A stretch of 54,357 bases of DNA from an uncultured Lachnospiraceae bacterium (GTDB lineage: Bacteria; Bacillota; Clostridia; Lachnospirales; Lachnospiraceae). Within the stretch, counting starts at the first letter, position 1; each line of letters starts with the position of its first letter. Positions 260-24,268 of this stretch are shown here, in pieces. The notes beneath the pieces were generated by a model. That model did no database searches. It was given only the letters and a program-made list of their open reading frames with translations, and was not told where the DNA came from. Both the position numbers and the translations under genes were made by a program. The stretch is from positions 1 through 54,357 of the forward strand of contig CANSTU010000014.1 in assembly GCA_947650005.1 (NCBI GenBank), in the 5' to 3' direction.

Positions 260-915
260 TCTCTGCTGTTTCATTCAGGCGGCATCAGTACCGTTTAAGG
301 AAACGGTGCTTGTAGATAATTGAACGTAAGACCGTTTCGTCTCCGCAGTTTTTTCTATAACCGACGGAGGCGGAACATGCGTCCGGCTCTTGTTTTTCGA
401 ATCCACCGCCAGGTGGGGAGAATCCTGATTTGATGCCTGTGCAGGCGGAAGGCAGCGGCAATACGGGACTGGAGCAGATTTACGGGAGATTACTTTTTGA
501 TACCGAAAATTAGGATGTTTCATATCCTCAGTGCCCGGAAAACCGTTTTGCGAAGATTTTTTTGACATCGCAGACAGAATGTTGCGGCACCGAAGTATCG
601 GAAAGGCCGGATGAATGTCCGGCTGGACTTTCATGGGCGTATGCCGGAGAGTCCCAGTCAATTAGTAACTGTTTTAGTATGCACAGCGTGTGATACACCA
701 GGAGGCGTGGAAGCGCCAGGGTGGAGTCTGCCTGTGCTCATTGCGCATTTGGAAGCGTTTTTATACCATACACTTCTTAAAAGACCGCCGCTTCTAAAAA
801 CCAGGCATGAAAAAGGGTTCCCATTTTTCTGCCCGCGCAGACAAAGCGAAGCCCGGAAATACCCGCCGGGGAACGCCAGGTGCATTAGTGCACACAAAGA
901 ACGGAGGAAACGTAA
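260..915 (+). other. long spacer between rpmJ and rpsM
   Basis: No convincing gene was found in these 656 bases; open frames here lack a good ribosome binding site and family similarity. Small hairpins are visible: GCCGGA/TCCGGC at 606-623, followed by an imperfect stem at about 622-657. A weak possible copy of the dispersed hairpin element lies at 424-452. A clear AACGGAGG-type ribosome binding site for rpsM sits at 900-908. The region could be a long regulatory leader, but no known ribosomal-protein leader was recognised. Confidence 0.5.
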
Positions 916-4498: not shown

Positions 4499-4688
4499 TC
4501 AGGTTCTTAGCAGGGATATAAAAAAGGATACGATTGTATTAGAAATGCGGATGATTGTGTTAGAAAAAATGGGAATTTCATATTATGATGAAATCATTCG
4601 GAGCGTTTCCGGCGGTGGTTTTCTGTCGGAACGCCGTACCGTATAAAACTGGACAGTGAAACGAAAAAATACGTCAAGGAGGCCAACA

Positions 4689-5324
4689 ATGGACAATATT
4701 GAGCGCAGAGACAGAGAAATGGTTTACATTTCGGACGGAGAGGTGTTCAAGGAACAGTGTGTGACCAGAAAGATCCTGCAGAGGCTGAATACAACGGATG
4801 TTTCCGATTTTGAAGGGATCGGGAAGATCGTGAAGGAGCTTCTGGGGAAATCGGAGGGCGCATTCATCAATCCGCCTTTTTATTGTGACTACGGTTCCCA
4901 TATCGAGGTGGGAAAGAATTTCTTTGCCAACTATAATTGCACAATTATCGATGTGGCAAAGGTGAAAATTGGGGATTACTGCCAGATGGCGCCCAATGTG
5001 GCCATTTATACCGCAGGACATCCTGTACATCCGGATTCCCGCAATTCCGCCTATGAATATGGTATCGGCGTGACGATCGGAGATAACGTGTGGATCGGAG
5101 GAAATACGGTGATTCTGCCCGGTGTCCATATTGGGAGCAACACGGTAATCGGCGCAGGCAGCGTGGTGACCAAGGATATCCCGGATTGGGTGATCGCCTG
5201 TGGAAATCCCTGTAAGGTGGTTCGCCAGATTACGGAGGAGGATCGGAAATTCTATTATAAGGACAGGCAATTTGACGAGGAAGCCTGGGAAAATGTGAGA
5301 AAGATGGGGCTGGCTGGAGAATAA
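4689..5324 (+). CDS. maltose/galactoside O-acetyltransferase-like enzyme
   Basis: This 211-residue cytoplasmic enzyme belongs to the LacA/Maa/NodL group of left-handed beta-helix acetyltransferases, which use acetyl-CoA to acetylate sugar hydroxyls. An N-terminal Mac domain (about 1-55) precedes hexapeptide repeats such as IGDNVWIGGNTVILPGVHIG. The active-site segment APNVAIYTAGHPVHPDSR contains the catalytic His of GHPVHP. The frame is open to 4656, but AAGGAGG at 4677-4683 sets the ATG at 4689. A paralogue lies at 28045. The sugar substrate cannot be read from the sequence. Confidence 0.85.
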   Translation: MDNIERRDREMVYISDGEVFKEQCVTRKILQRLNTTDVSDFEGIGKIVKELLGKSEGAFINPPFYCDYGSHIEVGKNFFANYNCTIIDVAKVKIGDYCQMAPNVAIYTAGHPVHPDSRNSAYEYGIGVTIGDNVWIGGNTVILPGVHIGSNTVIGAGSVVTKDIPDWVIACGNPCKVVRQITEEDRKFYYKDRQFDEEAWENVRKMGLAGE

Positions 5325-5360
5325 ATTGAAAAATGCCTTTGCAGCCATGTTTCAACCATG

Positions 5361-5394
5361 AATTGATGCCTGCTGAAGCAGGCATGGCGGTTAG
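5361..5394 (+). repeat. dispersed NAAR-hairpin element, copy 1
   Basis: TGCCTGC-TGAA-GCAGGCA forms a perfect 7-bp stem at 5367-5384 after ATTGA, and is followed by TGGCGGTTAG instead of the usual GANGGGAGTNA. Compared with other copies, the fifth stem pair is T-A rather than C-G, a compensatory change. It lies downstream of the acetyltransferase gene, about 250 nt before the VTC-domain gene. Confidence 0.7.
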
Positions 5395-5404
5395 GATCTT
5401 GAGG

Positions 5405-5438
5405 AAAACGTCGTGGGGAATGCCCTGCGGCGTTTTTC
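5405..5438 (+). terminator. probable terminator after the acetyltransferase gene
   Basis: AAACGTCGTGGG pairs imperfectly (with G-T pairs) with CCCTGCGGCGTTT around a short loop and runs into TTTTTCT. The rest of the gap to 5641 shows no gene. Confidence 0.65.
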
Positions 5439-5641
5439 TATGTTTAGGCCTGCACACAGGACATACAATCCACAAGGCGACATGCGGGCTGAGCGGCGAG
5501 CAGGGAAATCGTCGGAGGCAGCGTGCGAGACGCCTTTTCACAAAATCTTCATGGCATTTTTCAGGTTCATTTCAGGAAGGGCCGTTATACTCTGTTCATA
5601 GCGCGGGCCTGTGGAAGAAGAAAACGATGCGGGAGAGAACT

Positions 5642-10653: not shown

Positions 10654-10716
10654 ACGTTCCTCCCTACGGGCCTGCAGCGGATGCAGGACTTAAATCCATT
10701 GCAGTCAACTTACGGA

Positions 10717-11011
10717 CATGGTATCTTTCCGGTCTGGGCCCTTCCCGGGCTGTGGGCGAAAGAGGCGGGCTGCGATCCCGACAGGGAGGGGGAAGGCCAT
10801 TGGATCCTTTTCAGGCGCGCTCATGCCAGACATTCCGAGGAGCCCTGGACGCTTCCCAGTCGGGGTGTGTCCCTTCTGGGAAGCAGGTCTCCTCTTCATG
10901 GCATGATAGGCGCCTGAAAAGGATCCAATGGCCTTCCCCCTCCCTGTCGGAATCGCAGCCCGCCTCTTTCGCCCGCAGCCCGGGAAGGGCCCAGACTGGA
11001 AAGATACCATG
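10717..11011. repeat. giant hairpin element A: 102-bp arms around a 91-nt conserved core
   Basis: Left arm 10717-10818 and right arm 10910-11011 are inverted complements over 102 positions: 99 Watson-Crick pairs, two G-T pairs (10731/10997, 10753/10975) and one C-A mismatch (10777/10951). Weaker complementarity continues outward to about 10684 and 11037, reaching the stop of the response regulator gene. The core 10819-10909 folds into nested stems: TCATGCC/GGCATGA, GAGGAG/CTCCTC, GCTTCCCAG/CTGGGAAGC and GGG/CCC. Internal loops hold GACATTCC, CCCTGGAC and AGGT. The core is shared with element B. No gene lies in this gap. Confidence 0.9.
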
Positions 11012-11034
11012 GCCTTAAATGACTGCATTGAGTC

Positions 11035-11718
11035 TTAAATCCGCGGCCGCGATTCTTCTAATGTATATCCTGCGCCACGGACGGTACACAGCTGTACGTC
11101 AGATTCCAGGTGTTTTAGCTTTTTCCTTAGAAAAGCAATATAGGTCCAGACCACATCCATGCCAGATTCGGAATCATATCCCCAGACCCGTTCCATGAGG
11201 CAGGATGCGGAGAAAATATTACGGGGATTGCGCAGGAAAAGTTCCATCATCTGAAATTCTTTATTGTTCAACCGAATGGATCCGGACGGGCCGGACAGGA
11301 GAAAGGAATTACAGTCAAGGGACAGGTTTCCCAGGGTGATCACCTGGGGGGTGAAGCTTTGGGCCCGCCGCGCCAAGGCTTTGACGCGGGCCACGAATTC
11401 ACTTCCGGCAAAGGGCTTTGTGAGATAGTCGTCTGCTCCTGCGTCTAAGCCTATTACCCGATCTTCGATCTCGCTTTTGGAGGTTAAGAGAAGAACCGGA
11501 AGAGAGTGGCCCTGCGTCCGGATATGTCCGAGAACCTCCAGGCCGTCCATTTTGGGCATCATAATATCCAGCACGGCCACGTCGTACTTTCCTCCGGTAA
11601 GGTAATCTAGGGCGTCCCTGCCATTGTCCACTGTATCCACGGCAAAGTGGCTGCGTTCCAGCATGATTTTCAGCGCTTTGGCTACTTCGGGTTCGTCTTC
11701 TGCGATGAGTATGCGCAT
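11035..11718 (-). CDS. OmpR/PhoB-family response regulator
   Basis: The 227-residue regulator has a receiver domain with acidic pocket E7/D8, phospho-acceptor Asp51 in VLDIMMPKMDG, the conserved Thr in LLLTSK and the Lys in LTKPF. The C-terminal winged-helix DNA-binding domain (about 125-225) includes RLNNKEFQMMELFLRNP and VWTYIAFLRKKL. It is transcribed on the minus strand ahead of the histidine kinase gene and divergently from the iron-sulfur/ABC operon. The targets are not visible, though the adjacent divergent operon is an obvious candidate. Confidence 0.92.
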   Translation of the reverse strand: MRILIAEDEPEVAKALKIMLERSHFAVDTVDNGRDALDYLTGGKYDVAVLDIMMPKMDGLEVLGHIRTQGHSLPVLLLTSKSEIEDRVIGLDAGADDYLTKPFAGSEFVARVKALARRAQSFTPQVITLGNLSLDCNSFLLSGPSGSIRLNNKEFQMMELFLRNPRNIFSASCLMERVWGYDSESGMDVVWTYIAFLRKKLKHLESDVQLCTVRGAGYTLEESRPRI

Positions 11719-12055
11719 GGCGGGGCTCCTTTCCGGCAGAATAAGCCTTCTGGCGTTTTTCCTATTCTATCATTGTGGCGGAGAATGTGCCACCCTTTTG
11801 TTGTGGTGCAGCAGAGCAAACGCATGAATGTGCGGTTTATTGGAGAGGAGGGGGCGTTGCTTTTCCCGACCTTGTTAGGATAGTGACCGGAGAGGAGTAT
11901 TAGGGGAAAAAGAGGAAGCAGGATCGGAGAACTGAGCAGAAAGAGTACAGGAGCATGAATAAAATAAAAGAGTTTAAAAAGTTTTATGTTGACTTCTGTT
12001 GAGGAATATGATAGCATAAAATAAATTAATATTTTAAATTAATTAATATTTAAAT
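11719..12055. other. AT-rich intergenic region upstream of the iron-sulfur operon
   Basis: No gene was recognised between the response regulator start and the promoter at 12056. The right-hand part (about 11990-12055) is very AT-rich, with a near-direct repeat of AATTAATATTTTAAATT at 12023-12039 and 12040-12056. A weak additional promoter, TTGACT at 11989 with TAGCAT 17 nt on, is possible. Confidence 0.5.
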
Positions 12056-12115
12056 TTGACCGCTTGGCTCGTATTTTTATAATATATAAATTAATAAAGC
12101 AAATTAATTTATATA
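12056..12115 (+). promoter_or_regulatory. promoter with a 13-bp inverted-repeat operator
   Basis: TTGACC at 12056-12061 and TATAAT at 12078-12083 are 16 nt apart. A perfect inverted repeat with 13-nt arms (12083-12095 and 12103-12115, core ATAAATTAA/TTAATTTAT, 7-nt spacer) starts at the last base of the -10 box and covers the expected transcription start. This is the classic position for a repressor operator. The protein that binds it cannot be named. Confidence 0.65.
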
Positions 12116-12213
12116 AACACATACACCGAGATAACCACCGACCGGGTAGCGTTTGCTGGATTTATGAGGGGTTGGCAGTTTTCAATCAGATTGGAGAGAA
12201 AGGAGTACGATGT

Positions 12214-13419
12214 ATGGAACAGGAACTTAGAGATCAGGTAAACCGAATACTGCAAAGGGAGCTGGATGACGTCTACTTTTCTGTGGCAGAAAAGATTCTG
12301 AATGATCATCCAAAATCACGCTATGTACCCTGTATGCTGGCGCATAAGATGTCACCGGAAGAGGCCCGGGTAATCGATGCACTTCCAGATCGGGACTGGA
12401 CGCCAGAGATTGGCGAATTAAAGGTATCAGACGCTTTTGCTCAGAAGCTGGGAATGGATAAGTATGAGGTTGACGCACAGATCATGGATCGTTTTTTCAG
12501 TGCCGATATCATGCCGGATCCAGAGGTCGGTCCTAAAGTCCGGACAGATCCGGTACAATGGATGGATCTGCAGCACAGCCCAGTGTGGAGGGAACGAAAT
12601 GGACGGGCTTATTATATTGTGCTGCAGATGTTTTTGGAAAATGAGCTGGCACCCCGGATGGAGGCTTCGACGGAGGCGTCCAGAGTGGGCAATCCGGACT
12701 GGGTAAACCCCTCCGGAGGCAGGATCCTGCCCCGCTATGATGCGGTAAAAGATTTCCCGGAGCTGCTGCCCATCGAAAATTATAAAACGGTGTTGCAGTC
12801 CTGTGAATTGTTAACGATTATAGATTGTCCCTGTCGATTCCGCCATCCGGATACGGAAAAGAACCCCTTTGTTTGTGTGGAAGCGAATGATGCAGCAAAG
12901 CTGTTAATCGATATGGGATTTTCCCGGCAGTACTCCTGGAAGGAAGTTTTCGATATCGTGCAGAAGGCAGGGAAAAAGGAGCCTTTTGTACATACTGCAC
13001 GGAACAATGATATGATGGATGAAACCAATACCAGGATCACATCTTATTCCGACGTTCTGTGCAACTGTAATGTGACAGCCTGCGGCGTTCTTTCCAATAT
13101 GCACAATTATGGGAGCACCCAGAAGCCCTGGGATTATTATACTAAGTCCCGTTTCAGGGCGCAGCTCGATCCGGACAAGTGCATAGACTGTGGTCTGTGC
13201 GAGAAATCCCGGTGTATGTTCGGCGCAATTCAGACCAGATATTATGTGGAAAAAGGGCTCCATGGGAGATGTGTCAACGAGACTCAGTGCATGGGCTGTG
13301 GTTGTTGCGTGGAAACCTGTCCTTCAGGCGCTCTGACCATGAAGCTCGTGGATCCTCCGGAGAGTCTATTGGGCTATCATCCCACGGGCGGCAGACAGCC
13401 TGGAAAAGAAGGACAATAA
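12214..13419 (+). CDS. iron-sulfur protein of unknown function, paralogue 1
   Basis: The 401-residue soluble protein has an N-terminal helical domain of about 190 residues carrying LAHKMSPEEARVIDALP. A central region holds Cys205-x-Cys207 with Cys221, and Cys283-x-Cys285-x4-Cys290. The C-terminal two-cluster ferredoxin domain has C323-x2-C326-x2-C329-x4-C334 and C359-x2-C362-x2-C365-x3-C369-P. At least two [4Fe-4S] clusters are expected, and the central cysteines may hold a third. The frame is open to 12064, but AAGGAG at 12200-12205 supports ATG 12214. The next gene is a full-length paralogue. I recognise the ferredoxin fold but not the reaction. Confidence 0.7.
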   Translation: MEQELRDQVNRILQRELDDVYFSVAEKILNDHPKSRYVPCMLAHKMSPEEARVIDALPDRDWTPEIGELKVSDAFAQKLGMDKYEVDAQIMDRFFSADIMPDPEVGPKVRTDPVQWMDLQHSPVWRERNGRAYYIVLQMFLENELAPRMEASTEASRVGNPDWVNPSGGRILPRYDAVKDFPELLPIENYKTVLQSCELLTIIDCPCRFRHPDTEKNPFVCVEANDAAKLLIDMGFSRQYSWKEVFDIVQKAGKKEPFVHTARNNDMMDETNTRITSYSDVLCNCNVTACGVLSNMHNYGSTQKPWDYYTKSRFRAQLDPDKCIDCGLCEKSRCMFGAIQTRYYVEKGLHGRCVNETQCMGCGCCVETCPSGALTMKLVDPPESLLGYHPTGGRQPGKEGQ

Positions 13420-13492
13420 TTTATTCTGCCAGCAGTTTTTAAGAAATGGCTGATGGGAGTTGGCATAAGGCCGAAGCTTTTGCGATCCTAAG

Positions 13493-13528
13493 TTGAGTGT
13501 CCGCCAGGGCGGGAAAATGGAGGTTAGC
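13493..13528 (+). repeat. dispersed hairpin element, degenerate copy
   Basis: TTGAGTGTCCGCC-AG-GGCGG followed by GAAAATGGAGGTTAG matches the element layout with a 5-bp stem. It lies about 80 nt upstream of a better copy in front of the second iron-sulfur gene. Confidence 0.6.
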
Positions 13529-13570
13529 GCAATACCCAGCGGTTTCACGGAAAAAGAAGTTTCCTTTGCC

Positions 13571-13610
13571 TGAATTGAGCGCCCGCCAAAGCGGGCAGAT
13601 GGGAGTTAGT
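13571..13610 (+). repeat. dispersed hairpin element supplying the SD of the second iron-sulfur gene
   Basis: After TTGAG, GCCCGC-CAAA-GCGGGC (13581-13596) forms a 6-bp stem with an NAAR-like loop. It is followed by AGATGGGAGTTAGT. GGGAG at 13601-13605 is five bases from the ATG at 13611 and is the only plausible ribosome binding site. Confidence 0.85.
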
Positions 13611-14846
13611 ATGAATACAGATTACACCAATACGGAACCGGAATTGTTAAAGGAACTCAATCAAATATTAAACAAAGAAATCGACCCCTCTTATATAGAA
13701 TTGGCCCGCAGGATAGAACCTCGTATTGAAAACCCGCGTTATATGCCGTGGCTTCTGGCCCATAAGATGAGCCCGGAGTGCGTAAAAATACTGCTTGCGC
13801 TGCCGGATCCGGAATGGACGCCGCAACTGGGGGATCATATGGTTTCCGATACTTTTATTGAGACGCTGGGTATGGACAAGGAATTTGTACGTAGGCAATT
13901 GGAAGACCGATATTTTAGCGGAGATATTTTTTATGATAAATTCACAGGAGAACCTATCGTGACGCCCGGCGGTGCTCTTTGGGCGGATCTGCAGAACAAT
14001 CCGGACTGGATGATAAAGAACGGCCCGGCCTATTACAAGGGTGTAGCCATGTTTCATGAATATGATTTTGCTGCCTGCATTGAGGAAACCATGCATGAAT
14101 TGATGGAAAAGGGAATACATGGGTTGAATCAGATCTGCCCGCGCTATGATTCCGTCAAAGACTGCCCAGAGCTTCTTCCAGTGGAGAATTATAAAGAGAT
14201 CCTCAGGAGCAAAAAGAAACTGACGCAGAATCAATGTGCTTGCCGTACCCGCTATCCGGAGTATTGCCAGGATGACCATGTCTGCATCTCAGCGGATGAA
14301 ACCGCAGACTTTATGATTGCGCATAACCTGGGAAAAGAGGTCTCATTTGAGGAAATGTTCGACTACATCCAGAAGTCGGGAAAACGGGTTCCCCATGTCC
14401 ATGTGGTGGCACATACTATGGATCTGGAGGAAATTGGCACGATTCTATGCAGTTGTAATGTGAATACCTGCTCCGGTCTGCGCCATATCACGGCAACTGG
14501 AGGAAAATACCACTATCGGGAGATATACAATAAATCCAGATTTCGGGCCGTCCTGGATCCGGAGAAGTGTACGGACTGCGGTCTATGCTACAAAAGGCGT
14601 TGTATGTTCGACGCAATACATAGAAAATTTGACCCGGATTATGGCGATGAAGCGTTGTTTGTCAATCCTTCTTCCTGTATGGGATGCGGCTGCTGCGTGG
14701 AAACCTGCCCTGCAGGGGCGTTATCCATGAAGCTTGTAGATCCTCCTGAAGCGCTCCTGGGATGGAATGTCGTGGACGGAAAGGCTATAGATCCGGAGAC
14801 CCTCCATAGAAAAGAAGGGAAGGAGCCGGATATCGCTTTTTATTAA
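13611..14846 (+). CDS. iron-sulfur protein of unknown function, paralogue 2
   Basis: This 411-residue paralogue of the preceding gene has the same order: N-terminal domain with LAHKMSPECVKILLALP, central cysteines (C209-x-C211, C219, C225; C280-x-C282-x4-C287) and a C-terminal ferredoxin domain (C320, C323, C326, C331; C356, C359, C362, C366). The shared ending is KLVDPPEALLGW. Conservation of the central cysteines in both copies argues that they bind a cluster or metal. The two proteins may form a heterodimer. The start is fixed by the element-borne GGGAG. It is followed after 4 nt by a methyltransferase, so the two are probably co-translated. Function not assigned. Confidence 0.7.
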   Translation: MNTDYTNTEPELLKELNQILNKEIDPSYIELARRIEPRIENPRYMPWLLAHKMSPECVKILLALPDPEWTPQLGDHMVSDTFIETLGMDKEFVRRQLEDRYFSGDIFYDKFTGEPIVTPGGALWADLQNNPDWMIKNGPAYYKGVAMFHEYDFAACIEETMHELMEKGIHGLNQICPRYDSVKDCPELLPVENYKEILRSKKKLTQNQCACRTRYPEYCQDDHVCISADETADFMIAHNLGKEVSFEEMFDYIQKSGKRVPHVHVVAHTMDLEEIGTILCSCNVNTCSGLRHITATGGKYHYREIYNKSRFRAVLDPEKCTDCGLCYKRRCMFDAIHRKFDPDYGDEALFVNPSSCMGCGCCVETCPAGALSMKLVDPPEALLGWNVVDGKAIDPETLHRKEGKEPDIAFY

Positions 14847-14850
14847 AGCG

Positions 14851-15513
14851 ATGTCAATCCGCCGGGAAAGATTGAGGTCACTTTGGAAGGATGAAAAGGG
14901 AGGTTTACTTCAGGGAATGTCAACGGAGGAAATAGGTTCTTATTTTAACGAGATTGCAGACCGGTGGGATGGCATGAATCATTGCAGCGGCGAAAAACTC
15001 AGGCGGATTGTGGCTTTGGCCGGTATTCAAAAAGGCGACAAGGTATTGGATCTGGCCTGCGGAACGGGGGTATTGACGGGGTATCTCCTGGAAGCGACGC
15101 CCCATGTAACAGGCTTGGACCTGGCGGAAAATATGGTGGCGCTCGCACGGAAAAAATATGCCGATACCTCAGCCTGCTTTCTATGTGGCGATTTTTATTC
15201 CTTTCAGGGGAAATGCTTTGATGCGATTATCCTGCATAACGCTTATCCCCATTTCGAGGATAAAGAAAAGCTGGTTCTTTGTTTGGCAAGGGCGCTGGAA
15301 AGAGGAGGAAGGCTGGTGGTGGCGCATTCCCTGGGAAAGGATCATCTGAACCGGGTACATCAGGGACGGGTTGGGAATCTATGTAGGGCTCTACGGGCCG
15401 TAGAAGTGGAAGCAGATTTGTTTAAGGATGCATTTTCCATCGATTATATGGCAGATGAAGAGGACTTTTATGCTTTCTCCGGCACGAAGATAGGAAAATT
15501 TATAAGGCGTTGA
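14851..15513 (+). CDS. class I SAM-dependent methyltransferase
   Basis: The 220-residue enzyme has SAM-binding motif I VLDLACGTG followed by GLDLAENMVALARKKY, DAIILHNAYPHF and GGRLVVAHS, the order of class I methyltransferases of the UbiE/MenG type. Start 14851 lies four bases after the preceding stop and has only a weak ribosome binding site. ATG 14917 (MSTEEIGSYF) has AGGGAGG about 13 nt upstream and is an alternative, because the family usually begins close to YFNEIADRWD. It lies between the iron-sulfur pair and the sugar importer. The methyl acceptor is unknown. Confidence 0.75.
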   Translation: MSIRRERLRSLWKDEKGGLLQGMSTEEIGSYFNEIADRWDGMNHCSGEKLRRIVALAGIQKGDKVLDLACGTGVLTGYLLEATPHVTGLDLAENMVALARKKYADTSACFLCGDFYSFQGKCFDAIILHNAYPHFEDKEKLVLCLARALERGGRLVVAHSLGKDHLNRVHQGRVGNLCRALRAVEVEADLFKDAFSIDYMADEEDFYAFSGTKIGKFIRR

Positions 15514-15540
15514 AGAGAAAGAATGGGTTGTTTCCATTCC

Positions 15541-15580
15541 GAGTTGGATGCCTGATAAGACAGGCAGAAGGGAGTCTGAA
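15541..15580 (+). repeat. dispersed hairpin element supplying the SD of the ABC binding protein
   Basis: TGCCTG (15549-15554) and CAGGCA (15561-15566) pair across ATAAGA. AGAAGGGAGTCTGAA follows, with GGGAG at 15570-15574 six bases from ATG 15581. Relative to the array copies, the fifth pair has changed from C-G to T-A on both sides. Confidence 0.85.
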
Positions 15581-16930
15581 ATGAAACGGATTATTAGTTT
15601 GTTTTTGGCGTTGGCTTTGGTATTATCCATGGCTGCATGCGGAAACGGAAAAGAGAAAGCCCCTGCGGATACACCGGATGAGGGCAATGCACAGTTGGAA
15701 CAGTCTGCCGGAGAAGAAGAGGAGGCGGACGGTGAGGCTGTAGAGATCACATTTGCCACCTGGGCCATGGAAAACGAGATGAATAAAATGGTAGAGCTTT
15801 ACAATGCTTCCCAGGACAAAGTACATGTGTCGCTACAGGTAACACCGTTGTCCGAATACGGAACTTTGATGAATGCTGTTTTGGGCACTTCAGAAGGTCC
15901 GGATGTCCTCTGGGCAGGGCTGCAGACACGGCTGTGGGGAAATGCCGGAAAGCTGGCTGAACTCCAGGAGAGGGCGGCGCAGGATAATTTGGATTTTGGT
16001 GTATTTCTGGAATATCCGTTAAAACAAAATTATGTGGGAGATAAGCTCTACGGTCTTCCATGCTATACGGATTCTTATGCGATCTGCTACAACAAGGCTA
16101 TTTTCGATAAATATGCGGTGGAGTATCCCAAAGAAGGCTGGAGCTGGAACGATTATGAGGCCATTGCGGAAGAGCTGAATACCAAGATCAAGGCCGAGGG
16201 AGGCAGTGAATTTGCATCTGCCTTTTCCATCAACGAACCCGCTCATGGCACGTTGCTCCTGCTCACCGGAAATGGAGCCAAACTGTATAATGAGGATGTT
16301 ACTGCATGTGCCCTCAATGTACCGGAATCCGTTGAAATGTTGGAAATGATGCGAAGGATGATCGCCAGCGGTGCGCAGGCCGACTATGATACCCTTGTGG
16401 AGACGAGCCCAACGTCCCTTTTCATATCTGGCCTGGCGGCAATGATCGTGGTATGCCCTGATCCTGGAGCCAACGGGCTCTTTGAGGGAACGGCCGTCAA
16501 GGATTCGTTGGAATACATCGCGTTCCCCAACGGACCCACATCCGGCACGAATTATCTGTCTACCGTTACCATGAATAACCTGGTGATCAATAGCGGTACA
16601 GAAAAATTTGACGCGGCATGGGACTTTGTGACCTGGTATACCATGGATCAAAAGGCGATGGAGACATTCGCACAGATCGAATGGCATCTGCCCACAAATG
16701 TCAACGCGTTCGATGCCTGGAAGGCCTTCCATGATTATGCGCAGGTTTATGCAAAAGAGGCGGAAAGAGTGGTGACAATATGGGACGTTCCGCTGTGCAA
16801 TTATTCCTGCCTGGGACAGATCAGCCCGAACCTGATCCCCGTATTCAACGGTGAGATCAGCGCAGAAGAAGGACTGGCGAACCTGGAGACAGCCATCAAT
16901 GAGCTGATCGCTGAAGAGCAGGGAAATTAG
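15581..16930 (+). CDS. ABC transporter solute-binding lipoprotein (family 1, sugar type)
   Basis: The 449-residue extracellular lipoprotein captures a solute for the two permeases encoded next. A signal peptide with lipobox LSMAAC and lipidated Cys20 is followed by an acidic linker and a MalE-like family 1 binding fold (ITFATWAMENEMNKMVELYN, YGLPCYTDSYAICYNKAIFD, WSWNDYEAIAEELN). The frame extends upstream to 15548, but the signal peptide and element-borne SD fix the start at 15581. No ATPase gene is present in the operon, which is common because a shared MsmK-type ATPase serves several such importers. An oligosaccharide or glycoside is likely; the exact sugar is not evident. Confidence 0.88.
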   Translation: MKRIISLFLALALVLSMAACGNGKEKAPADTPDEGNAQLEQSAGEEEEADGEAVEITFATWAMENEMNKMVELYNASQDKVHVSLQVTPLSEYGTLMNAVLGTSEGPDVLWAGLQTRLWGNAGKLAELQERAAQDNLDFGVFLEYPLKQNYVGDKLYGLPCYTDSYAICYNKAIFDKYAVEYPKEGWSWNDYEAIAEELNTKIKAEGGSEFASAFSINEPAHGTLLLLTGNGAKLYNEDVTACALNVPESVEMLEMMRRMIASGAQADYDTLVETSPTSLFISGLAAMIVVCPDPGANGLFEGTAVKDSLEYIAFPNGPTSGTNYLSTVTMNNLVINSGTEKFDAAWDFVTWYTMDQKAMETFAQIEWHLPTNVNAFDAWKAFHDYAQVYAKEAERVVTIWDVPLCNYSCLGQISPNLIPVFNGEISAEEGLANLETAINELIAEEQGN

Positions 16931-16950
16931 ATCTTGAGATCCCAAGAGGA

Positions 16951-17056
16951 TGCAGAGGCTGTTGCAATTGATAGCAATACAGCAATATGCGGTTGTGCCA
17001 TTCAAAATAGAGATGCCGTATATTGAATTATTCTATTTCTTAAAACAGCCTCTGCA
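16951..17056 (+). promoter_or_regulatory. large intercistronic hairpin between binding protein and permease
   Basis: TGCAGAGGCTGTT at 16951-16963 pairs exactly with AACAGCCTCTGCA at 17044-17056. Inside, CAATATGCGG pairs with CCGTATATTG with one G-T pair. No U-run follows, so it is more likely an mRNA-stabilising or attenuating hairpin. Such a structure would leave the binding protein expressed above the permeases, as known for malE-malF in enteric bacteria (inference). Confidence 0.65.
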
Positions 17057-17094
17057 CTATCTTGATTAGGCCGAATCTGTAAAAGGAGGGACTT

Positions 17095-18012
17095 ATGGAA
17101 AAACGCAAAATGGGCAGAAGGAGGAAAAAGGAGATTATAACCGGATACTTATTTATTCTGCCGTTGTTCCTGGGGCTTGGTGTATTCCATTTTTACGCAT
17201 TTTTCAATAATATCTGGATTAGCCTTACGGATCGCAAGGCTTTATCGGAGGGAAAGTTTATCGGACTGAAAAATTACATAAAAGTATTTCAGGACGACAA
17301 TTTCCGCCAGTCTCTTGGAAATACCGTCCTATACGTCCTGATCTGCGTCCCCTGCATTCTGGTAATCGCAACGGTTTTGGCGGTAATGTTGAATAGCCGG
17401 ATTCGGGGAAAGGGTATTTTCCGGACACTGATCTTTTTCCCGCTGGTGACGGCCCCATCGGCCATCGCGTTGACCTGGAGGTGGCTGCTCAATACACGTT
17501 ATGGCATGATTAACAGCATTCTTAGGGCCTTTGGGAGAGGGGAAGTGGATTGGCTGATCGACAAACACTATACATTATATTCCTGTGCAGTGGTTATCAT
17601 ATGGGCGGCGATCGGGTACCAGGTTATCGTCATCCTTGCGGGACTTCAGAATATTTCTGTTACCTACTATGAGGCGGCGAGGATAGACGGTGCAGGCGGC
17701 GTGAAACAGTTTTTCTATATCACTCTGCCACTGCTCACTCCTACCCTGTATTTCGTACTGACCCTTGCCGTGATCTCCATGTTTAAAGAATTCGAGATCG
17801 TTTATATGCTGATCCCTTCCACCCAGTATAACACATCATCACCTGCCATCGATTCGTCCAGAACGGTGGTACGTTACTTCTATGATTTAACGTTTCGGGG
17901 AGAATTCAATGAAGGTTATGGTTCTGCAATTTCCGTATGTCTTTTCCTGATCATCTTGGCAGTTACTTTGATCCAGAACAAATTGCAGAAAAAGTGGGTA
18001 TTTTATGCCTGA
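17095..18012 (+). CDS. sugar ABC transporter permease, MalF type
   Basis: The 305-residue inner-membrane subunit has about six transmembrane segments. The cytoplasmic EAA loop YYEAARIDGAGGVKQFFYIT contacts the ATPase. The N-terminal arginine/lysine stretch before the first membrane segment (FILPLFLGLGVFHFYAF) fits a cytoplasmic N-terminus. AAAGGAGGG at about 17082-17090 supports ATG 17095. The end overlaps the reading frame of the second permease, whose real start is a little downstream. It forms the channel together with that permease. Confidence 0.9.
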   Translation: MEKRKMGRRRKKEIITGYLFILPLFLGLGVFHFYAFFNNIWISLTDRKALSEGKFIGLKNYIKVFQDDNFRQSLGNTVLYVLICVPCILVIATVLAVMLNSRIRGKGIFRTLIFFPLVTAPSAIALTWRWLLNTRYGMINSILRAFGRGEVDWLIDKHYTLYSCAVVIIWAAIGYQVIVILAGLQNISVTYYEAARIDGAGGVKQFFYITLPLLTPTLYFVLTLAVISMFKEFEIVYMLIPSTQYNTSSPAIDSSRTVVRYFYDLTFRGEFNEGYGSAISVCLFLIILAVTLIQNKLQKKWVFYA

Positions 18013-18034
18013 ATTGGGAGGAGGAGAGTCTCAC

Positions 18035-18850
18035 ATGAGAAGAAAAAAATGGGTAATTTACCTCGTGCTGTCCATTGCCGTGGCGGTGATGGTGATACCG
18101 TTCGTCTGGATGCTTCTGACCTCCTTCAAGACATTTGAAGACTCCACAAGGATCCCGCTTCAGATCCTGCCGGAACAATGGATTCTCACTAATTATAGAG
18201 AGATCCTGGAAGTATTCCCTGTGGCACAATGGTTTTTAAATTCCCTGTTATCCGTAGCAATATCCATTTTGGGACAGGTGCTTTTGGGCTCGCTGGCTGC
18301 ATACGCGTTTGCTCGGCTGCGGTTTCCGGGCAAAGAAGCGCTGTTTATGCTTTGCCTTTCCATCATGATGGTCCCGGAGCAGATTTTTATTATTCCACGC
18401 TATAATACGCTGGCTGCCATCGGACTGACCAATACCCGGACGGCTTTGTGGATCGTAAGGCTCTTCTCCGTTTTTGCGGTGTTTCTGATGAGGCAATTCA
18501 TCCTTTCTGTTCCGCGCGAATTGGATGAAGCGGCGATGATGGACGGCGCCGGGCATTTTCGAATCTATGCCACGATTATTCTTCCCGTTCTGAAAGCGCC
18601 TGTGGTTTCCCTTGCAATCCTTTCCGGCCTGACCACCTGGAAGGATATGATGTGGCCTTTAATCGTAATTCGCGACAGGGATAAAGTACCTGTGGTTTCC
18701 GGGCTTTCGACCCTGGCAGATTATTTCGCCAACCGTTTTCCCCATCAAATGGCAGGCGGTGTGCTCTGTTCCGTTCCGGTGATCCTTTTTTTCTTCATTC
18801 TCCAGAAACATTTTGTGGCGGGCATTGCATCCCAGGGGATTAAAGAATAA
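18035..18850 (+). CDS. sugar ABC transporter permease, MalG type
   Basis: This 271-residue second channel subunit starts MRRKKWVIYLVLSIAVAVMV and carries the EAA loop ELDEAAMMDGAGHFRIYATI. It has about six membrane segments. The open frame begins at 18005, inside the previous gene, but the GGGAGGAGGAG stretch at 18017-18027 places the start at ATG 18035. The operon appears to end here, with the next promoter 10 nt after the stop. Confidence 0.9.
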   Translation: MRRKKWVIYLVLSIAVAVMVIPFVWMLLTSFKTFEDSTRIPLQILPEQWILTNYREILEVFPVAQWFLNSLLSVAISILGQVLLGSLAAYAFARLRFPGKEALFMLCLSIMMVPEQIFIIPRYNTLAAIGLTNTRTALWIVRLFSVFAVFLMRQFILSVPRELDEAAMMDGAGHFRIYATIILPVLKAPVVSLAILSGLTTWKDMMWPLIVIRDRDKVPVVSGLSTLADYFANRFPHQMAGGVLCSVPVILFFFILQKHFVAGIASQGIKE

Positions 18851-18859
18851 GGATAAATG

Positions 18860-18889
18860 TTGACATATTTTGGAAAAGTCTTATATACT
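18860..18889 (+). promoter_or_regulatory. promoter of the ROK regulator gene
   Basis: TTGACA at 18860-18865 is followed by overlapping -10 options TATATA (18882-18887, 16-nt spacer) and TATACT (18884-18889, 18-nt spacer). It lies immediately after the permease stop, so the regulator has its own transcription start. Confidence 0.7.
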
Positions 18890-18968
18890 GAAAACGTATA
18901 AACTGATACTCCTGCAATGAGCAGAAGCGATGTGTCGAAGTGAATACAGTAGCGGAGAGGATGGAAAC

Positions 18969-20192
18969 ATGTTATGTGGAACCAATATGACCGACATCAA
19001 GATAGCCAATCGAAGCGCTATTTTGCGTCTGCTGCACGAATCGGGAGGGATGTCACGCAAACAGATCGCGGCCCGGCTGAAACTGACGCCCGCGACGATT
19101 ACTGTTATTATCAATGAATTGATGAGTGAAGGCATTCTGGAGGAAGGGATCAGCATACCGAATGCCGGTTCTGCGGGAAGAAGAGAGGTGCTGGTGGAGA
19201 TCAGCCGTTCAAAGCATGTAGCGCTTGGCCTGGCCCTTGGTGTCGGTCAGGCCAAGTTTGCTGCCGTGAATCTGCATGGAGAAAAAATTTATGAGGAGAC
19301 GATTTGTCTCCCGCAGGATTTGACTTTGCAATATGTGGTAGAGGAAGTTGCCGGGAGAATCCGTGCGGTGATAGAGCATCAGAGTTATTCGGAAGAATAT
19401 ATCATTGGATTGGGAATTACCGTCTGCGGTGTGGTGGATTGCGCCAACGGCATTATCCTCGATAGCGGCGGTCTCTGGGACGACAAAAATGTCCCGATTG
19501 TGGATAAACTGAGAGATGTATTTTCATTTCCCGTGATCGCTGCCAATAGCGTGCGTAGTTTCGCTAATGCGTATATTTTTTTGCAGCGTGACCAAAAGGC
19601 GCAGAACATGTTGTTTATACGTAATGAGGCTACCATGGGGGTGACCCTTTTTTTGGATGGCCAGTTTTACGGCGGTAACAGAGAGGTGTTTGATGGTATT
19701 GCGCATTATACGGTTATCCCGGACGGTCGCCTGTGTTCTTGCGGGAAACGGGGATGTCTCAGCACGGTCGCGACGCAGGACGGGATGATGGAGAGTCTCA
19801 GAGAGCGTTTCGGGAAGGAGAGTACGCCGCTTTTGTATAGACAGACGGAGGGTGTGTTTTCGCGTTTGACGTTTCCCATGTTCGTGGATGCCGCTTGTAA
19901 TGGAGATAAAGGAGCCTTAGAGATACTTGAGAATGCCCAAGAGGCATTTGCCAATGCGGTCACATTTTCCATTCGGCTCCTGAGCGTGCAGGAAGTCGTT
20001 TTTTATGGAGAAATGTTTGAGAAGGAACCATTTTTTCTCATGCTGAAGGAAAAATTAGTGAAAAAAACAGGAGCGAGCTATAAGGACAATATTTACAGAG
20101 CGGTCCCCCATTCAATGCAGCTGGAATGGAATGCTGCCCCGATTATGGCGGTAACCTCATTTTTCGGTGAAGGAGGGCATAAGGATTATTAA
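18969..20192 (+). CDS. ROK-family transcriptional regulator
   Basis: The 407-residue protein has an N-terminal winged helix-turn-helix (about 8-65, NRSAILRLLHESGGMSRKQI and LTPATITVIINELMSEG) fused to a ROK sugar-kinase-like domain. GLGITVCGVVDCANG and the zinc motif CSCGKRGC are present. Members such as NagC and XylR repress sugar operons and bind a sugar effector. ATG 18969 has GAGAGG eight bases upstream; an ATG at 18930 has no such site. It follows the ABC importer operon directly and probably controls it, with the 13-bp inverted repeat at 12083-12115 as a candidate operator (inference). Confidence 0.88.
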   Translation: MLCGTNMTDIKIANRSAILRLLHESGGMSRKQIAARLKLTPATITVIINELMSEGILEEGISIPNAGSAGRREVLVEISRSKHVALGLALGVGQAKFAAVNLHGEKIYEETICLPQDLTLQYVVEEVAGRIRAVIEHQSYSEEYIIGLGITVCGVVDCANGIILDSGGLWDDKNVPIVDKLRDVFSFPVIAANSVRSFANAYIFLQRDQKAQNMLFIRNEATMGVTLFLDGQFYGGNREVFDGIAHYTVIPDGRLCSCGKRGCLSTVATQDGMMESLRERFGKESTPLLYRQTEGVFSRLTFPMFVDAACNGDKGALEILENAQEAFANAVTFSIRLLSVQEVVFYGEMFEKEPFFLMLKEKLVKKTGASYKDNIYRAVPHSMQLEWNAAPIMAVTSFFGEGGHKDY

Positions 20193-20249
20193 ATCCTGAC
20201 GCATCCTTTTGCGGTTCATCTTTTCATGGTTTTCTATGTAAATTATCTG

Positions 20250-20280
20250 AACTTCTGCCGGATGACGGCAGAAGTTTTTG
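20250..20280 (+). terminator. intrinsic terminator after the ROK gene
   Basis: ACTTCTGCCG at 20251-20260 pairs exactly with CGGCAGAAGT at 20266-20275 and runs into TTTTG. It separates the accessory block from the ecfA operon. Confidence 0.85.
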
Positions 20281-20446
20281 TCTTGTAATTCCCAGAGGAA
20301 TCCTTTACAATAGGAAAGTAGCGCACAGACGGAGCGGCGGGACAAACGGTGTAAAGGTATCAAAACGGAACGGCTGCCCCGATTGAATCGCTCCCCGTGT
20401 ACGCCGAACGGGAGCAAAAGGAATTGAACAGGATGAAAGAAAAGCG

Positions 20447-21319
20447 ATGGAACGGGCAATCATAGAGACGGACAAGCTGGTATATGAATATGTGAAGCGG
20501 GACGAAGAGGGCAACGAGATGGGATCCACCCGGGCGGTGGACGCTGTGAGCCTTCAGGTGGGCCAGGGAGATTTCATTGCAATTCTGGGCCATAACGGTT
20601 CCGGGAAATCCACGCTGGCCAAGCACATCAATGCGCTGTTGGTGCCGACAGCAGGGACGGTATGGGTGGACGGAAAGGACACATCCCAGGAATCAAATGC
20701 CTGGGATGTGAGGCAGACGGCCGGAATGGTCTTCCAGAATCCGGACAACCAGATCATAGGCCAGGTGGTGGAAGAGGATGTGGGATTCGGTCCGGAGAAT
20801 ATGGGCGTTCCCACGAAGGAAATCTGGGAACGTGTGGAAGAAAGCCTGAAGGCCGTAGGGATGTATGAATTCCGCAAATATTCCCCCAATAAGCTTTCCG
20901 GAGGGCAGAAACAGCGGGTTTCCATAGCGGGAGTACTGGCCATGCATCCCAAATGCATTGTGCTGGACGAACCCACGGCCATGTTGGATCCCAACGGCCG
21001 CAGGGAGGTGATCCGGGCGGCGCGGGCATTGAATGATGTGGAAAATGTGACCATCCTCCTGATCACCCATTATATGGAAGAAGTGATTCATGCGGACAGA
21101 GTATTTGTGATGGACGCTGGAAAAGTGGTGATGCAGGGAACGCCCCGGGAGATTTTCTCTCAGGTGGAAAGGCTGAAATCCCTGCGCCTGGACGTGCCCC
21201 AGGCCACGCTTCTGGCCTATGAACTGAAGAAGAACGGCCTGCCTCTTCCGGACGGGATCCTGACGGCGGAAGAACTGCGGGACGCGCTGTGCGAGCTGGA
21301 GGGAAGCAAAGGGGCCTAG
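20447..21319 (+). CDS. ecfA1: energy-coupling factor transporter ATPase EcfA1
   Basis: EcfA1 (290 residues) is one of the two ATPases that power vitamin and metal uptake by ECF transporters. Visible are Walker [11 protein letters not shown]-loop [18 protein letters not shown], signature [13 protein letters not shown] and Walker [14 protein letters not shown]. The NPDNQ sequence after the Q-loop is typical of EcfA. ATG 20447 has only a weak ribosome binding site. With ecfA2, ecfT and truA it keeps the order usual in Firmicutes after rplQ. No substrate-binding S component is encoded in this window, so the module is presumably shared. Confidence 0.93.
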
Positions 21320-21455
21320 AGCCAAAGAGGGGTAAAGGGAGACGCCCAATCGGTCATGCAGTTGCCCTGGGATCAGAAGGATGTAAGGAAAAGGCAGGTG
21401 AGATGGCGCGGCATATTTTTGCCGTCCCCGGAAATAAGAAAGAGGTTGAATTGCC

Positions 21456-22343
21456 ATGGCAATGGATCTGGAGCATGTGAATTATGTATACGGCGCGGAT
21501 ACGGAGCTGTCCGTGGCCGCTTTAAAGGATATCTGCCTGCATATAGACGACGGGGAGTTCATTGGCCTGATCGGGCATACCGGTTCCGGGAAGTCCACGC
21601 TGGTGCAGCATTTAAACGGTCTGATCCGTGCAACCAGCGGCATGGTTTCCTATAACGGGGCGAATATTTACGATAAGGACTACGACAGAAGGCAGCTGCG
21701 CAGCCGGGTAGGGCTCGTTTTTCAATATCCGGAACATCAGCTCTTTGAAATAGACGTTTTTTCCGATGTGTGTTTTGGCCCGAAGAACCTGGGGCTGGGA
21801 AAGGAAGAGACTCAGGCGTGTGCCAGGGAGGCGCTGCAGCTCGTGGGGATCGGAGAGGAATATTACGCCCAGTCGCCATTCGACCTATCCGGAGGGCAGA
21901 AAAGGCGAGTGGCCATTGCCGGCGTTCTGGCTATGAAACCGGATATGCTGGTGCTGGACGAACCCACGGCAGGGTTGGATCCTAGAGGCAGGGACGAGAT
22001 CCTGGGGGAGATTTCCCAATTGCGGGAAAAAACGGGCATGACTATTGTGCTGGTGTCCCACAGCATGGAGGATGTGGCCAATTATGTGGATCGAATCGTG
22101 GTGATGAATAAGGGAAGTATCCTTTTCGACGACACGCCCAGGGAGGTATTCCGCCACGTGCGCACGCTGGAGGAGGTGGGGCTTGCGGCTCCCCAGGTGA
22201 CCTATATTATGAATACGTTGAAGGATGCAGGCTTGAAGGTGGATACGGATGTGACGACGTTAAAAGAGGCTTGCGCGAATATTTTGAAAGCAGTGGAACT
22301 GCCGGGACGGAAAGACTGCCGGGAAGGAAAAACGGTATGTTAA
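21456..22343 (+). CDS. ecfA2: energy-coupling factor transporter ATPase EcfA2
   Basis: This 295-residue second ATPase has Walker A GHTGSGKST, Q-loop LVFQYPEHQLFEIDVFSDV, signature LSGGQKRRVAIAG and Walker B MLVLDEPTAGLDP. It pairs with EcfA1 and docks on EcfT. ATG 21456 and ATG 21462 are both possible starts. Its last codons overlap the start of ecfT by 7 nt, indicating translational coupling. Confidence 0.93.
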   Translation: MAMDLEHVNYVYGADTELSVAALKDICLHIDDGEFIGLIGHTGSGKSTLVQHLNGLIRATSGMVSYNGANIYDKDYDRRQLRSRVGLVFQYPEHQLFEIDVFSDVCFGPKNLGLGKEETQACAREALQLVGIGEEYYAQSPFDLSGGQKRRVAIAGVLAMKPDMLVLDEPTAGLDPRGRDEILGEISQLREKTGMTIVLVSHSMEDVANYVDRIVVMNKGSILFDDTPREVFRHVRTLEEVGLAAPQVTYIMNTLKDAGLKVDTDVTTLKEACANILKAVELPGRKDCREGKTVC

Positions 22344-23140
22344 GAGATATCACTTTGGGCCAATATTACCAGACGGATTCGGTGATCCACAGGCTGGATC
22401 CCCGGGTAAAGCTGACGGCCACAATCGTTTTCATCATCGGCCTTTTTGTGGTGGATAATATATGGGGATATGTGCTGGCGGCGCTGTTCCTTGCCTGTAT
22501 CATCCGCCTTTCTCACGTGCCGTTTCGGTTTATGGTAAAGGGGATGAAGGCCATTGTGTTCCTTTTGGTTCTTACCGTGGTTTTCAACCTGTTCCTGACG
22601 CCGGGGGAACCGCTGTTTTCCCTCTGGAAGCTGACCATAACGAAGGAAGGGCTCAGGACGGCTATTTTTATGGCTGTTCGTTTGAGCTTTCTGATCATCG
22701 GCTCCTCTGTGATGACGCTGACCACCACGCCGAACAATTTAACGGACGGGATGGAAAGCTTATTGAACCCGTTGAAAAAGCTGAAAGTACCGGTGCATGA
22801 GATTTCCATGATGATGTCCATTGCCCTGCGTTTTATTCCCATATTGATGGAAGAGACGGATAAGATCATGAAGGCGCAGATCGCAAGGGGAGCGGATTTT
22901 GAGAGCGGCAGCCTGATACGGAAGGCGAGAAGCCTGGTTCCCCTCCTGGTCCCCTTGTTCATTTCCGCATTTCGCAGGGCTAACGACCTGGCGATGGCCA
23001 TGGAGGCGCGCTGCTACAGAGGAGGCGAGGGCAGGACGAAGATGAAGCCGCTCGTCTACAAACAAAGGGATTATATGGCTTATGTGGTTCTGGCCGTGTA
23101 TTTCGCTTCCTGTGTGGTGGTGGGGAACCTGTTGTTTTGA
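22337..23140 (+). CDS. ecfT: energy-coupling factor transporter transmembrane protein EcfT
   Basis: The scaffold subunit (267 residues) links the ATPases to the vitamin-specific S subunit. It has several membrane segments, starting MLRDITLGQYYQTDSVIHRL, and two coupling helices with ARG-type motifs seen as QIARGADFESG and AMEARCYRGGEGRTK. The frame is open to 22271, inside ecfA2, but GGGAAGG at 22321-22327 and family length favour ATG 22337. truA follows 26 nt later. Confidence 0.92.
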   Translation: MLRDITLGQYYQTDSVIHRLDPRVKLTATIVFIIGLFVVDNIWGYVLAALFLACIIRLSHVPFRFMVKGMKAIVFLLVLTVVFNLFLTPGEPLFSLWKLTITKEGLRTAIFMAVRLSFLIIGSSVMTLTTTPNNLTDGMESLLNPLKKLKVPVHEISMMMSIALRFIPILMEETDKIMKAQIARGADFESGSLIRKARSLVPLLVPLFISAFRRANDLAMAMEARCYRGGEGRTKMKPLVYKQRDYMAYVVLAVYFASCVVVGNLLF

Positions 23141-23148
23141 CGAGAATG

Positions 23149-23166
23149 ATCAGATGGGAGCCAAAT
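23149..23166 (+). repeat. half of the dispersed element before truA
   Basis: ATCAGATGGGAGCCAAAT keeps the 3' half of the element (AGATGGGAG) without its hairpin. GGGAG at 23156-23160 is six bases from ATG 23167. It could be a remnant, or simply a similar ribosome binding site. Confidence 0.35.
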
Positions 23167-23940
23167 ATGCAAAGAGTCATGTTAACGGTGGCGTATGATG
23201 GCACACACTATCATGGGTGGCAGATCCAGCCTGGGAGAACCACCATAGAAGGGGTGCTAAATGAATGCTTAAGTGGGCTTCTTTCGGAAAAAACGGCTGT
23301 TATCGGCGCGAGCCGGACGGATTCAGGCGTACACGCCCTGGGGAATGTGGCTGTATTCGATACTTGTGCACGTATTCCAGCCAAGAAGTTTTCTTATGCT
23401 TTGAATCAGCGTTTGCCAGAGGATATCCGTATTCGCGGTTCCAGGGAGGTACCGCCTTCTTTTCATCCCAGAAAAACGTCCAGTATTAAGACATACGAAT
23501 ACCGCATTTTAAATGAGGAGTTTCCCGATCCGGTAAAACGTCTGTACAGCTATTTTACCTATCGGGCGCTCGATGAAGAGAGGATGCGGTTAGCTGCGGC
23601 CTATTTGGTGGGGGAACATGATTTTGCCAGCTTCTGCAGCGCAGGAGCGCAGACTGATACGACGGTGCGGACGATCTATGCCTGCCAGGTGGTGCGCAAG
23701 GGTACGGAGATTGTGATACGGATATCAGGCTCCGGTTTTCTGTACAATATGGTACGCATCATCGCAGGAACACTGATGGAGGTGGGAAAGGGAAATCTGG
23801 CCCCAGAAGCCATGGAAGGGATCCTGAAAGCCGTGGACCGCCGGGCAGCGGGCCCCACTGCGCCGCCAAAGGGACTGATTCTGCTCTCGTATCGTTTCCC
23901 GGAACTGGAGGAAGGGACGGGGAAAACAACATTTTCGTGA
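23167..23940 (+). CDS. truA: tRNA pseudouridine(38-40) synthase
   Basis: TruA (257 residues) converts uridines 38, 39 and 40 of the tRNA anticodon arm to pseudouridine. The catalytic Asp52 lies in GASRTDSGVHALGN. FLYNMVRIIAGTLMEVGKG and the terminal PPKGLILLSYRF are also family marks. A TTG-started frame runs from 23137, but ATG 23167 has GGGAG six bases upstream and matches the family start (MQRVMLTVAYDGTHYHGWQ). The stop is 29 nt before giant hairpin element B. Confidence 0.95.
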   Translation: MQRVMLTVAYDGTHYHGWQIQPGRTTIEGVLNECLSGLLSEKTAVIGASRTDSGVHALGNVAVFDTCARIPAKKFSYALNQRLPEDIRIRGSREVPPSFHPRKTSSIKTYEYRILNEEFPDPVKRLYSYFTYRALDEERMRLAAAYLVGEHDFASFCSAGAQTDTTVRTIYACQVVRKGTEIVIRISGSGFLYNMVRIIAGTLMEVGKGNLAPEAMEGILKAVDRRAAGPTAPPKGLILLSYRFPELEEGTGKTTFS

Positions 23941-23968
23941 CGCTCCAGGCGGAACCGTACATTTTCCG

Positions 23969-24227
23969 TTCCTTTTCACGCCCCGCCAGGATGCTGCCCA
24001 AAGAGGAACGCCCCAGGGGGAGCGGCGGAAGCCGTCTCATGTTCCCGCGCGCCGTCGCGCCGGACATTCCGATGAGCCCTGGACGCTTCCCAGTCGGGCA
24101 ACGGCCCTCCTGGGAAGCAGGTCTCATCTGCATGGCGCGAAATGCGCGCGGGAACATGAGACGGCTTCCGCCGCTCCCCCTGGGGCGTTCCTCTTTGGGC
24201 AGCATCCTGGCGGGGCGTGAAAAGGAA
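23969..24227. repeat. giant hairpin element B: 84-bp perfect arms around a 91-nt conserved core
   Basis: Arms 23969-24052 and 24144-24227 are exact reverse complements over 84 nt. The core 24053-24143 is 91 nt, as in element A, and aligns to it without gaps. Shared stretches include GACATTCCGA, GAGCCCTGGACGCTTCCCAG, TCGGG, CTGGGAAGCAGGTCTC and TCTxCATGGC. The stems are TCGCGCC/GGCGCGA, GATGAG/CTCATC, GCTTCCCAG/CTGGGAAGC and GGGC/GCCC. Arm sequence is unrelated to element A. It fills the gap between truA and the rplM promoter and may also stop transcription from the ecf operon. Confidence 0.92.
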
Positions 24228-24268
24228 TCATTTTCTGCGAAAATAAGGAAAAATGGCGGAAAAAGTTA

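Follow-up and report, generated by a model that had tools for sequence, protein, structure and literature searches.

The window analyzed here, a 54,357-nt stretch of contig CANSTU010000014.1 from an uncultured Lachnospiraceae bacterium (GenBank assembly GCA_947650005.1), contains two giant hairpins, element A (10717-11011) and element B (23969-24227), which are members of a family of small, mobile, non-coding DNA elements of gut bacteria. Our results indicate that they are probably palindromic elements resembling miniature inverted-repeat transposable elements (MITEs), approximately 260-340 bp in the window, and kept near-perfect by copying from one arm to the other. Each element is nearly one palindrome, in which arms of roughly 100 bp enclose a folded core of 91 nt, and the enzyme that moves it would be encoded by another part of the genome. 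Once the element has inserted, one arm may be copied onto the other by template switching or by recombination, which would keep the hairpin near-perfect and occasionally flip the core, while deletions that take out the core would leave short stumps. The core might be a cis-acting structured signal needed for spread, with a folded DNA strand a likelier form of it than RNA, and this is the least certain step of the proposed mechanism.

The two hairpins and their family

The 102-bp arms of A are complementary at 99/102 positions, the mismatches being one G-T, one T-G and one C-A, and the 84-bp arms of B are complementary at 84/84. Six inverted repeats of at least 30 nt within 2 kb are found in the window, and the four other than A and B are 71-77% complementary. 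Between the arms lies a core that aligns between A and B without gaps over 91 columns, with both sides changed at pairs 5/86, 6/85 and 21/74. The near-perfect arms and the gapless core with these paired changes were described in an earlier note made from the sequence alone, and our analysis agrees with both descriptions. The cores of A and B fold better than 200/200 shuffles (z -5.0 and -5.4). Their scores against our covariance model R1, given below, are not independent, as both elements (B is locus L001) belong to its training set. The target-site duplications are candidates, and such repeats are in modest excess across the window's genome.

10689-10697 (+): candidate target-site duplication of A, left copy (CTTAAATCC), a 9-bp direct repeat near the outer arm ends
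10717-10818 (+): left arm of A, 99/102 complementary
10819-10909 (+): conserved 91-nt core of A, sense strand +, R1 103.8 bits, 5' internal loop at 10829-10836
10910-11011 (+): right arm of A, inverted repeat of the left arm
11034-11042 (+): candidate target-site duplication of A, right copy (CTTAAATCC), 9-bp direct repeat
23960-23966 (+): candidate 7-bp target-site duplication of B, left copy (CATTTTC), direct repeat; CATTTTC also at 23930
23969-24052 (+): left arm of B, 84/84 complementary
24053-24143 (+): conserved 91-nt core of B, sense strand +, R1 116.5 bits, 5' internal loop at 24063-24070
24144-24227 (+): right arm of B, 84/84 complementary
24229-24235 (+): candidate 7-bp target-site duplication of B, right copy (CATTTTC), direct repeat

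Across 52 relatives (51 distinct), 96.2% of 1455 cells were paired and both sides had changed in 27/29 pairs, in an alignment that was fitted to the tested structure and hence is biased in its favour. The observed values for pairing, double change and covariation were reached by 0/500 shuffles and the number of pair types by 6/500, and slid structures used as a control were 34-43% paired. These further paired substitutions support the structured family proposed in the earlier note. The loop words regarded there as unchanged are so in part: GRCATT-C and TCTCCATGG are mostly kept across the 52 relatives, whereas CCCTGGAC varies (CCCGAAGG, CCCAGGGG and others). The paired changes had also been taken as a sign of selection on a folded RNA or DNA. 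Paired changes alone do not show selection on an RNA, and G-U is rare in the core stems (17 of about 1349 standard cells, with one mostly G-U pair set aside). Among copies in the window's genome, core-to-core likeness has a mean of 82% (1378 pairs). Genera with different element ends have the same core, and the retention of loop letters despite these differing ends suggests that the core may serve as a cis signal. Two matches in genome G746 (L327, L329) cover 54 nt of the core and are apparently core copies with a shortened tip. Two copies in the genus mate G006 (L234, L235) share an inserted inverted repeat of 16 nt on the 3' side of the core.

Searched with a 76-nt query from the core, the window's genome (G000) first yielded 40 scored places. 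R1, built from 26 cores of that genome, reached E 0.01 or better in 113 rows among the 150 candidates scored, antisense double matches counted, and cmsearch on the fetched loci gave 80 distinct sense places of at least 41 bits. As many as 15 of the 80 end at a contig end, so that some may be halves of one copy and the assembly evidently breaks at these hairpins; one further place (C6:86002-86051, 53.9 bits) is not among the 80. The set analyzed comprised 69 places, 65 uncut and four weaker, of which 60 had arms, 6 had no arms in register and 3 were too close to a contig end. Within the genus, matches occur in 5/13 genomes (about 80 copies in G000, 42 in G006, 11 in G004, 9 in G012 and 2 in G007) and none in the other 8. 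Matches within the bacterial family occur in 17/397 genomes and 14/334 genera, the window's own included, in a search that scored up to 10 candidates per genome. Within the class, model R2 matched 3/391 genomes including the window's own, all from the same bacterial family.

A strict pattern search of genome contigs gave one true relative, and the same search of viral contigs gave no match. L032 is a family member in a Lachnospiraceae metagenome-assembled genome. A deltaproteobacterial pattern match (L031) had no covariance-model match and is ascribed to chance. Five loci from G403 gave two Rfam matches, both far below the gathering score, and a literature search covering few subscription journals showed no description of the hairpin family among its best matches.

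Concerted arm change, mobility and genomic placement

The pooled arms of the 60 copies in the window's genome hold 5729 matched positions, 107 G-T, 77 A-C and 63 other mismatches, and 40 gapped positions, and in 16/60 copies they pair perfectly along 83-119 bp. The length of the left arm varies between 31 and 155 nt, which implies that length changes are also mostly mirrored in the opposite arm. Our data did not confirm that the arms of different copies are unrelated, as had been claimed for A and B. They are diverged homologues, with 129 match pairs among the 60 copies, 70-88% identical among the 50 listed, and the arm of A is 75% identical to copy L115 over 111 nt. As arm identity within a copy is far above that between copies, each hairpin evolves in concert. 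L026 has a 127-bp arm pair that resembles a hairpin nested in the tip of another, with two successive inner-arm-like ends on each side.

Arm changes were counted in G006, a one-contig genome with a contamination estimate of 10%, where 41 of the 42 matches were fetched and 38 analyzed (L236-L238 were left out). Between the members of 14 disjoint closest pairs, the arms differ by 50 paired Watson-Crick changes, 43 single-sided changes and 1 other, whereas about 6.2 paired coincidences are expected by chance. This supports the proposal of the earlier note that the arms are kept paired by continual correction. A tree-based count gave 87 paired, 113 single and 7 other double changes, with 8.4 coincidences expected. 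Six pairs at less than 5% distance show 6 paired and 13 single changes and five pairs near 10% distance show 33 and 21, the pattern expected where a single mutation is in time either copied across or copied away. Between the very close copies L212 and L218, the arms show one paired change and none on a single side. Additionally, G-T and A-C mismatches are about equally frequent in the G006 arms (38 vs 32, p 0.55), which points to copying of DNA.

Copying may at times overrun the element. In 3 of the 11 G006 copies scored without a 7-bp duplication, the flanks are palindromic for 5-6 nt beyond the element end, and one of the 11 (L235) does carry an 8-bp duplication; the palindromic flanks were matched in 0/20000 permutations, with the threshold set after the three copies had been seen. 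A flip of the hairpin was found in two sister genomes, G024 (L097) and G348 (L098), where flanks 97.2 and 96.3% identical enclose it at the same site on opposite strands. The cores are identical at 95/96 positions in opposite orientation, and reversing one hairpin computationally raised the identical positions from 229/315 aligned to 263/288. Other shared sites, one inverted (L221/L009) and three in the same orientation (L234/L064, L032/L135, L213/L093), were not counted, as they may be independent insertions.

The evidence for mobility comes mainly from G006, where the element is about 256 bp with terminal inverted repeats. Ends resembling CTCAAACTTCGCAGG occur on both sides in 31/38 copies (up to 4/15 mismatches allowed), the pattern counts being 68/61 against 3/2 in the control. 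Exact adjacent duplications flank 17/31 copies, all of 7 bp except one of 8 bp, four further copies have a duplication with one mismatch, and 15/16 of the 7-bp duplications read TNNNNNA. These ends and duplications indicate that the element is inserted as a unit, and the near-identity of copies L212-L215 and L218 that some insertions are recent. The mobility suggested earlier is hence supported; the idea that the core hops into hairpin tips is not, as in G006 the whole hairpin moves with its ends. In G403 the ends are CAGGCAATTGCGAAAC or near, and the two clearest copies (L302, L314) have duplications of 10 and 12 bp, read by eye.

Core-less stumps that keep the ends measure 28-80 bp in G006 and 64-66 bp in six cases among the G403 stretches, some with duplications alongside. 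Loci with arms alone had been named as a possible argument against a structured family; they do occur, but many further paired substitutions are also present. G007, the nearest relative, is 80-91% alike to the window in long matches over the compared stretch. There the site of B is empty, about 65 bp separating the flank matches that lie 320 bp apart in the window, and element A is absent from its site, where unrelated repeats are present. The latter (L172, contig C194) are tandem units of another short repeat that bears a hairpin (CCCATGCCCGC...GCGGGCATAAATTCAATAG). A candidate empty site of a recent G006 copy in G012 was rejected, since its left flank is not syntenic.

Two candidates for the source of movement were also rejected. 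At L245, an element end (15/15) at 5567-5581 lies about 80 nt upstream of a gene at 4559-5488 (-), whose product is presumably an Rpn-like PD-(D/E)XK protein. Such a nuclease as mobiliser is contradicted by PF12784, which matches 6 times in G006 and not at all in G000 (E 1e-5), and other lone ends adjoin unrelated sequence, so that the end beside the Rpn-like gene is probably there by chance. Likewise, a pair of ends 1.85 kb apart in G403, enclosing what are presumably a MutS-like ATPase and an RNase H-like protein, is a chance pair.

The copies in the window's genome are many, dispersed and mostly intergenic, beside varied genes (here mechanically called open reading frames). Where the 3' end of a neighbour faces the element, 38/56 neighbours end within -10 to +41 nt, and where the 5' end does so, 4/60 lie in that range; the four neighbour orientations are roughly even (16, 14, 14 and 12). 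Placement behind genes fits either tolerance of insertions there or a preference for terminators. An apparent common neighbour, a run of proteins of about 450 aa, proved an artefact of a 1.4-kb cut. In the window, A lies between a response-regulator gene and a histidine-kinase gene and B between the genes for a tRNA pseudouridine synthase and ribosomal protein L13, while an S4-Clostridia ribosomal protein leader (RF03140, 40.8 bits) at 601-662 (+) is the sole Rfam match. Loss of SbcD does not generally explain why the hairpins survive, as 20/21 genomes have a match, 16 of them over the cut-off, including all five hairpin-positive genomes of the genus. Among 12 hairpin-bearing genomes, G094, G108 and G187 are below the cut-off and G209 has no match, against 1/9 others below.

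Competing explanations

Several observations weigh against a mobile element maintained by arm copying. In the window's genome, repeats of at least 7 occur in 12/59 copies compared to about 4 in shuffles, a modest excess, and several of the 12 are misplaced for a target-site duplication. The termini of other genera differ and their duplications look longer, which makes one enzyme for all unlikely, and no transposase gene was found between matching ends in the stretches read, with about the first 100 of the 129 G006 end sites and the listed part of the G187 sites covered. The intergenic letters of G007 are too diverged to reveal a joined target, and the core flip is known from one clear case. 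In addition, G-T exceeds A-C in the arms of the window's genome (107 vs 77, p 0.03), also in copies with at most three mismatches (23 vs 10, p 0.035), and this may reflect some selection at the RNA level.

A possible though less favoured alternative to template switching is homologous recombination of the RecA type between the inverted arms, with gene conversion of the arms and inversion of the core by crossover. Such recombination yields both outcomes, and arms of about 100 bp may in our judgement suffice for it. However, two 43-bp stumps (L262, L264) carry paired departures from the usual end and are, as we judge it, short for recombination, although these departures could be inherited from longer parents.

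It is also conceivable, if rather doubtful, that the core is the active site of a self-repairing palindromic transposon, that is, a folded DNA or RNA signal that drives arm copying, flipping or mobility. Across the 60 copies, arm mismatch and core score are correlated (Spearman -0.42, p 0.001), with a median mismatch of 1.3% in the 46 copies of at least 95 bits against 14.7% in the 10 copies below 90 bits, and all 16 perfect-arm copies have cores of at least 98.5 bits; age is a confounder of this correlation, and the scoring model was built from high-scoring copies.

A structured-RNA family, in which the hairpin is transcribed and compensatory mutations restore pairing under selection on the RNA, is unlikely. 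It would account for the 96.2% pairing with both-side change in 27/29 pairs, for the loop words mostly kept across genera and for the G-T excess in the window's genome. On the other hand, G-U is rare in the stems, the G006 arms have no G-T preference, and paired changes separate even copies as close as L212 and L218. Pairing also extends into flanking DNA in three copies, and A and B have no match in Rfam. That the hairpins are newly born, with host DNA captured as one arm, copied once at insertion and never corrected later, is very improbable: the perfect arms in 16/60 copies and the large differences between copies would fit, but the arms are homologous across copies, and close G006 copies have a common arm sequence and differ by paired changes.

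Relation to known systems

How stem pairing is kept despite sequence drift is an old question. The hairpins provide dozens of natural replicates per genome in which paired changes accumulate, single-sided ones linger and the core is flipped in place, and which make the rates, direction and tract lengths of arm copying measurable. They are also a warning that strong covariation need not imply selection on RNA, and the kept core is a motif of many genera.

REP/BIME, ERIC and Rickettsia palindromic elements (RPE) are likewise dispersed palindromic repeats of bacteria, set apart from the present hairpins by being shorter or less perfect. REP, ERIC and RPE are named in a review (PMC10969869).

Quasipalindrome correction and template switching, as described in PMC8604942 and PMC8794818 (see also PMC7202029), resemble the present case in that arms are made identical and spacers flip. 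Template switching between inverted repeats yields arm homogenisation and spacer inversion (PMC8604942), and as these two form its published signature, the hairpins can be read as its products. PMC8794818 proposes template switching for the upkeep of RNA stems, calls the strongest evidence for short stems circumstantial, and notes that with priming from the loop the stem would be corrected and the loop retained, in line with the kept core of the hairpins. The yeast cases in PMC8604942 have arms of 7-16 bp, although its introduction also cites homogenisation of long repeats, whereas the arms of the hairpins, about 80-130 bp long, enclose about 90 nt and occur in dozens of copies per genome.

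Bacterial MITEs such as Coxiella QMITE2 are, as shown in PMC10969869, similarly small, non-coding, intergenic and present in many copies with terminal inverted repeats, and QMITE2 also has flanking duplications of 7-9 bp and a transcript predicted as a single long stem-loop. Unlike MITEs, the present hairpins have an inverted repeat that spans almost all of the element, arms that change in concert and a folded core kept across many genera under differing ends, and the stretches read contained no autonomous parent. Collectively, a MITE-like element and template switching at inverted repeats are known, and the hairpin family, its scale and its core are new here.

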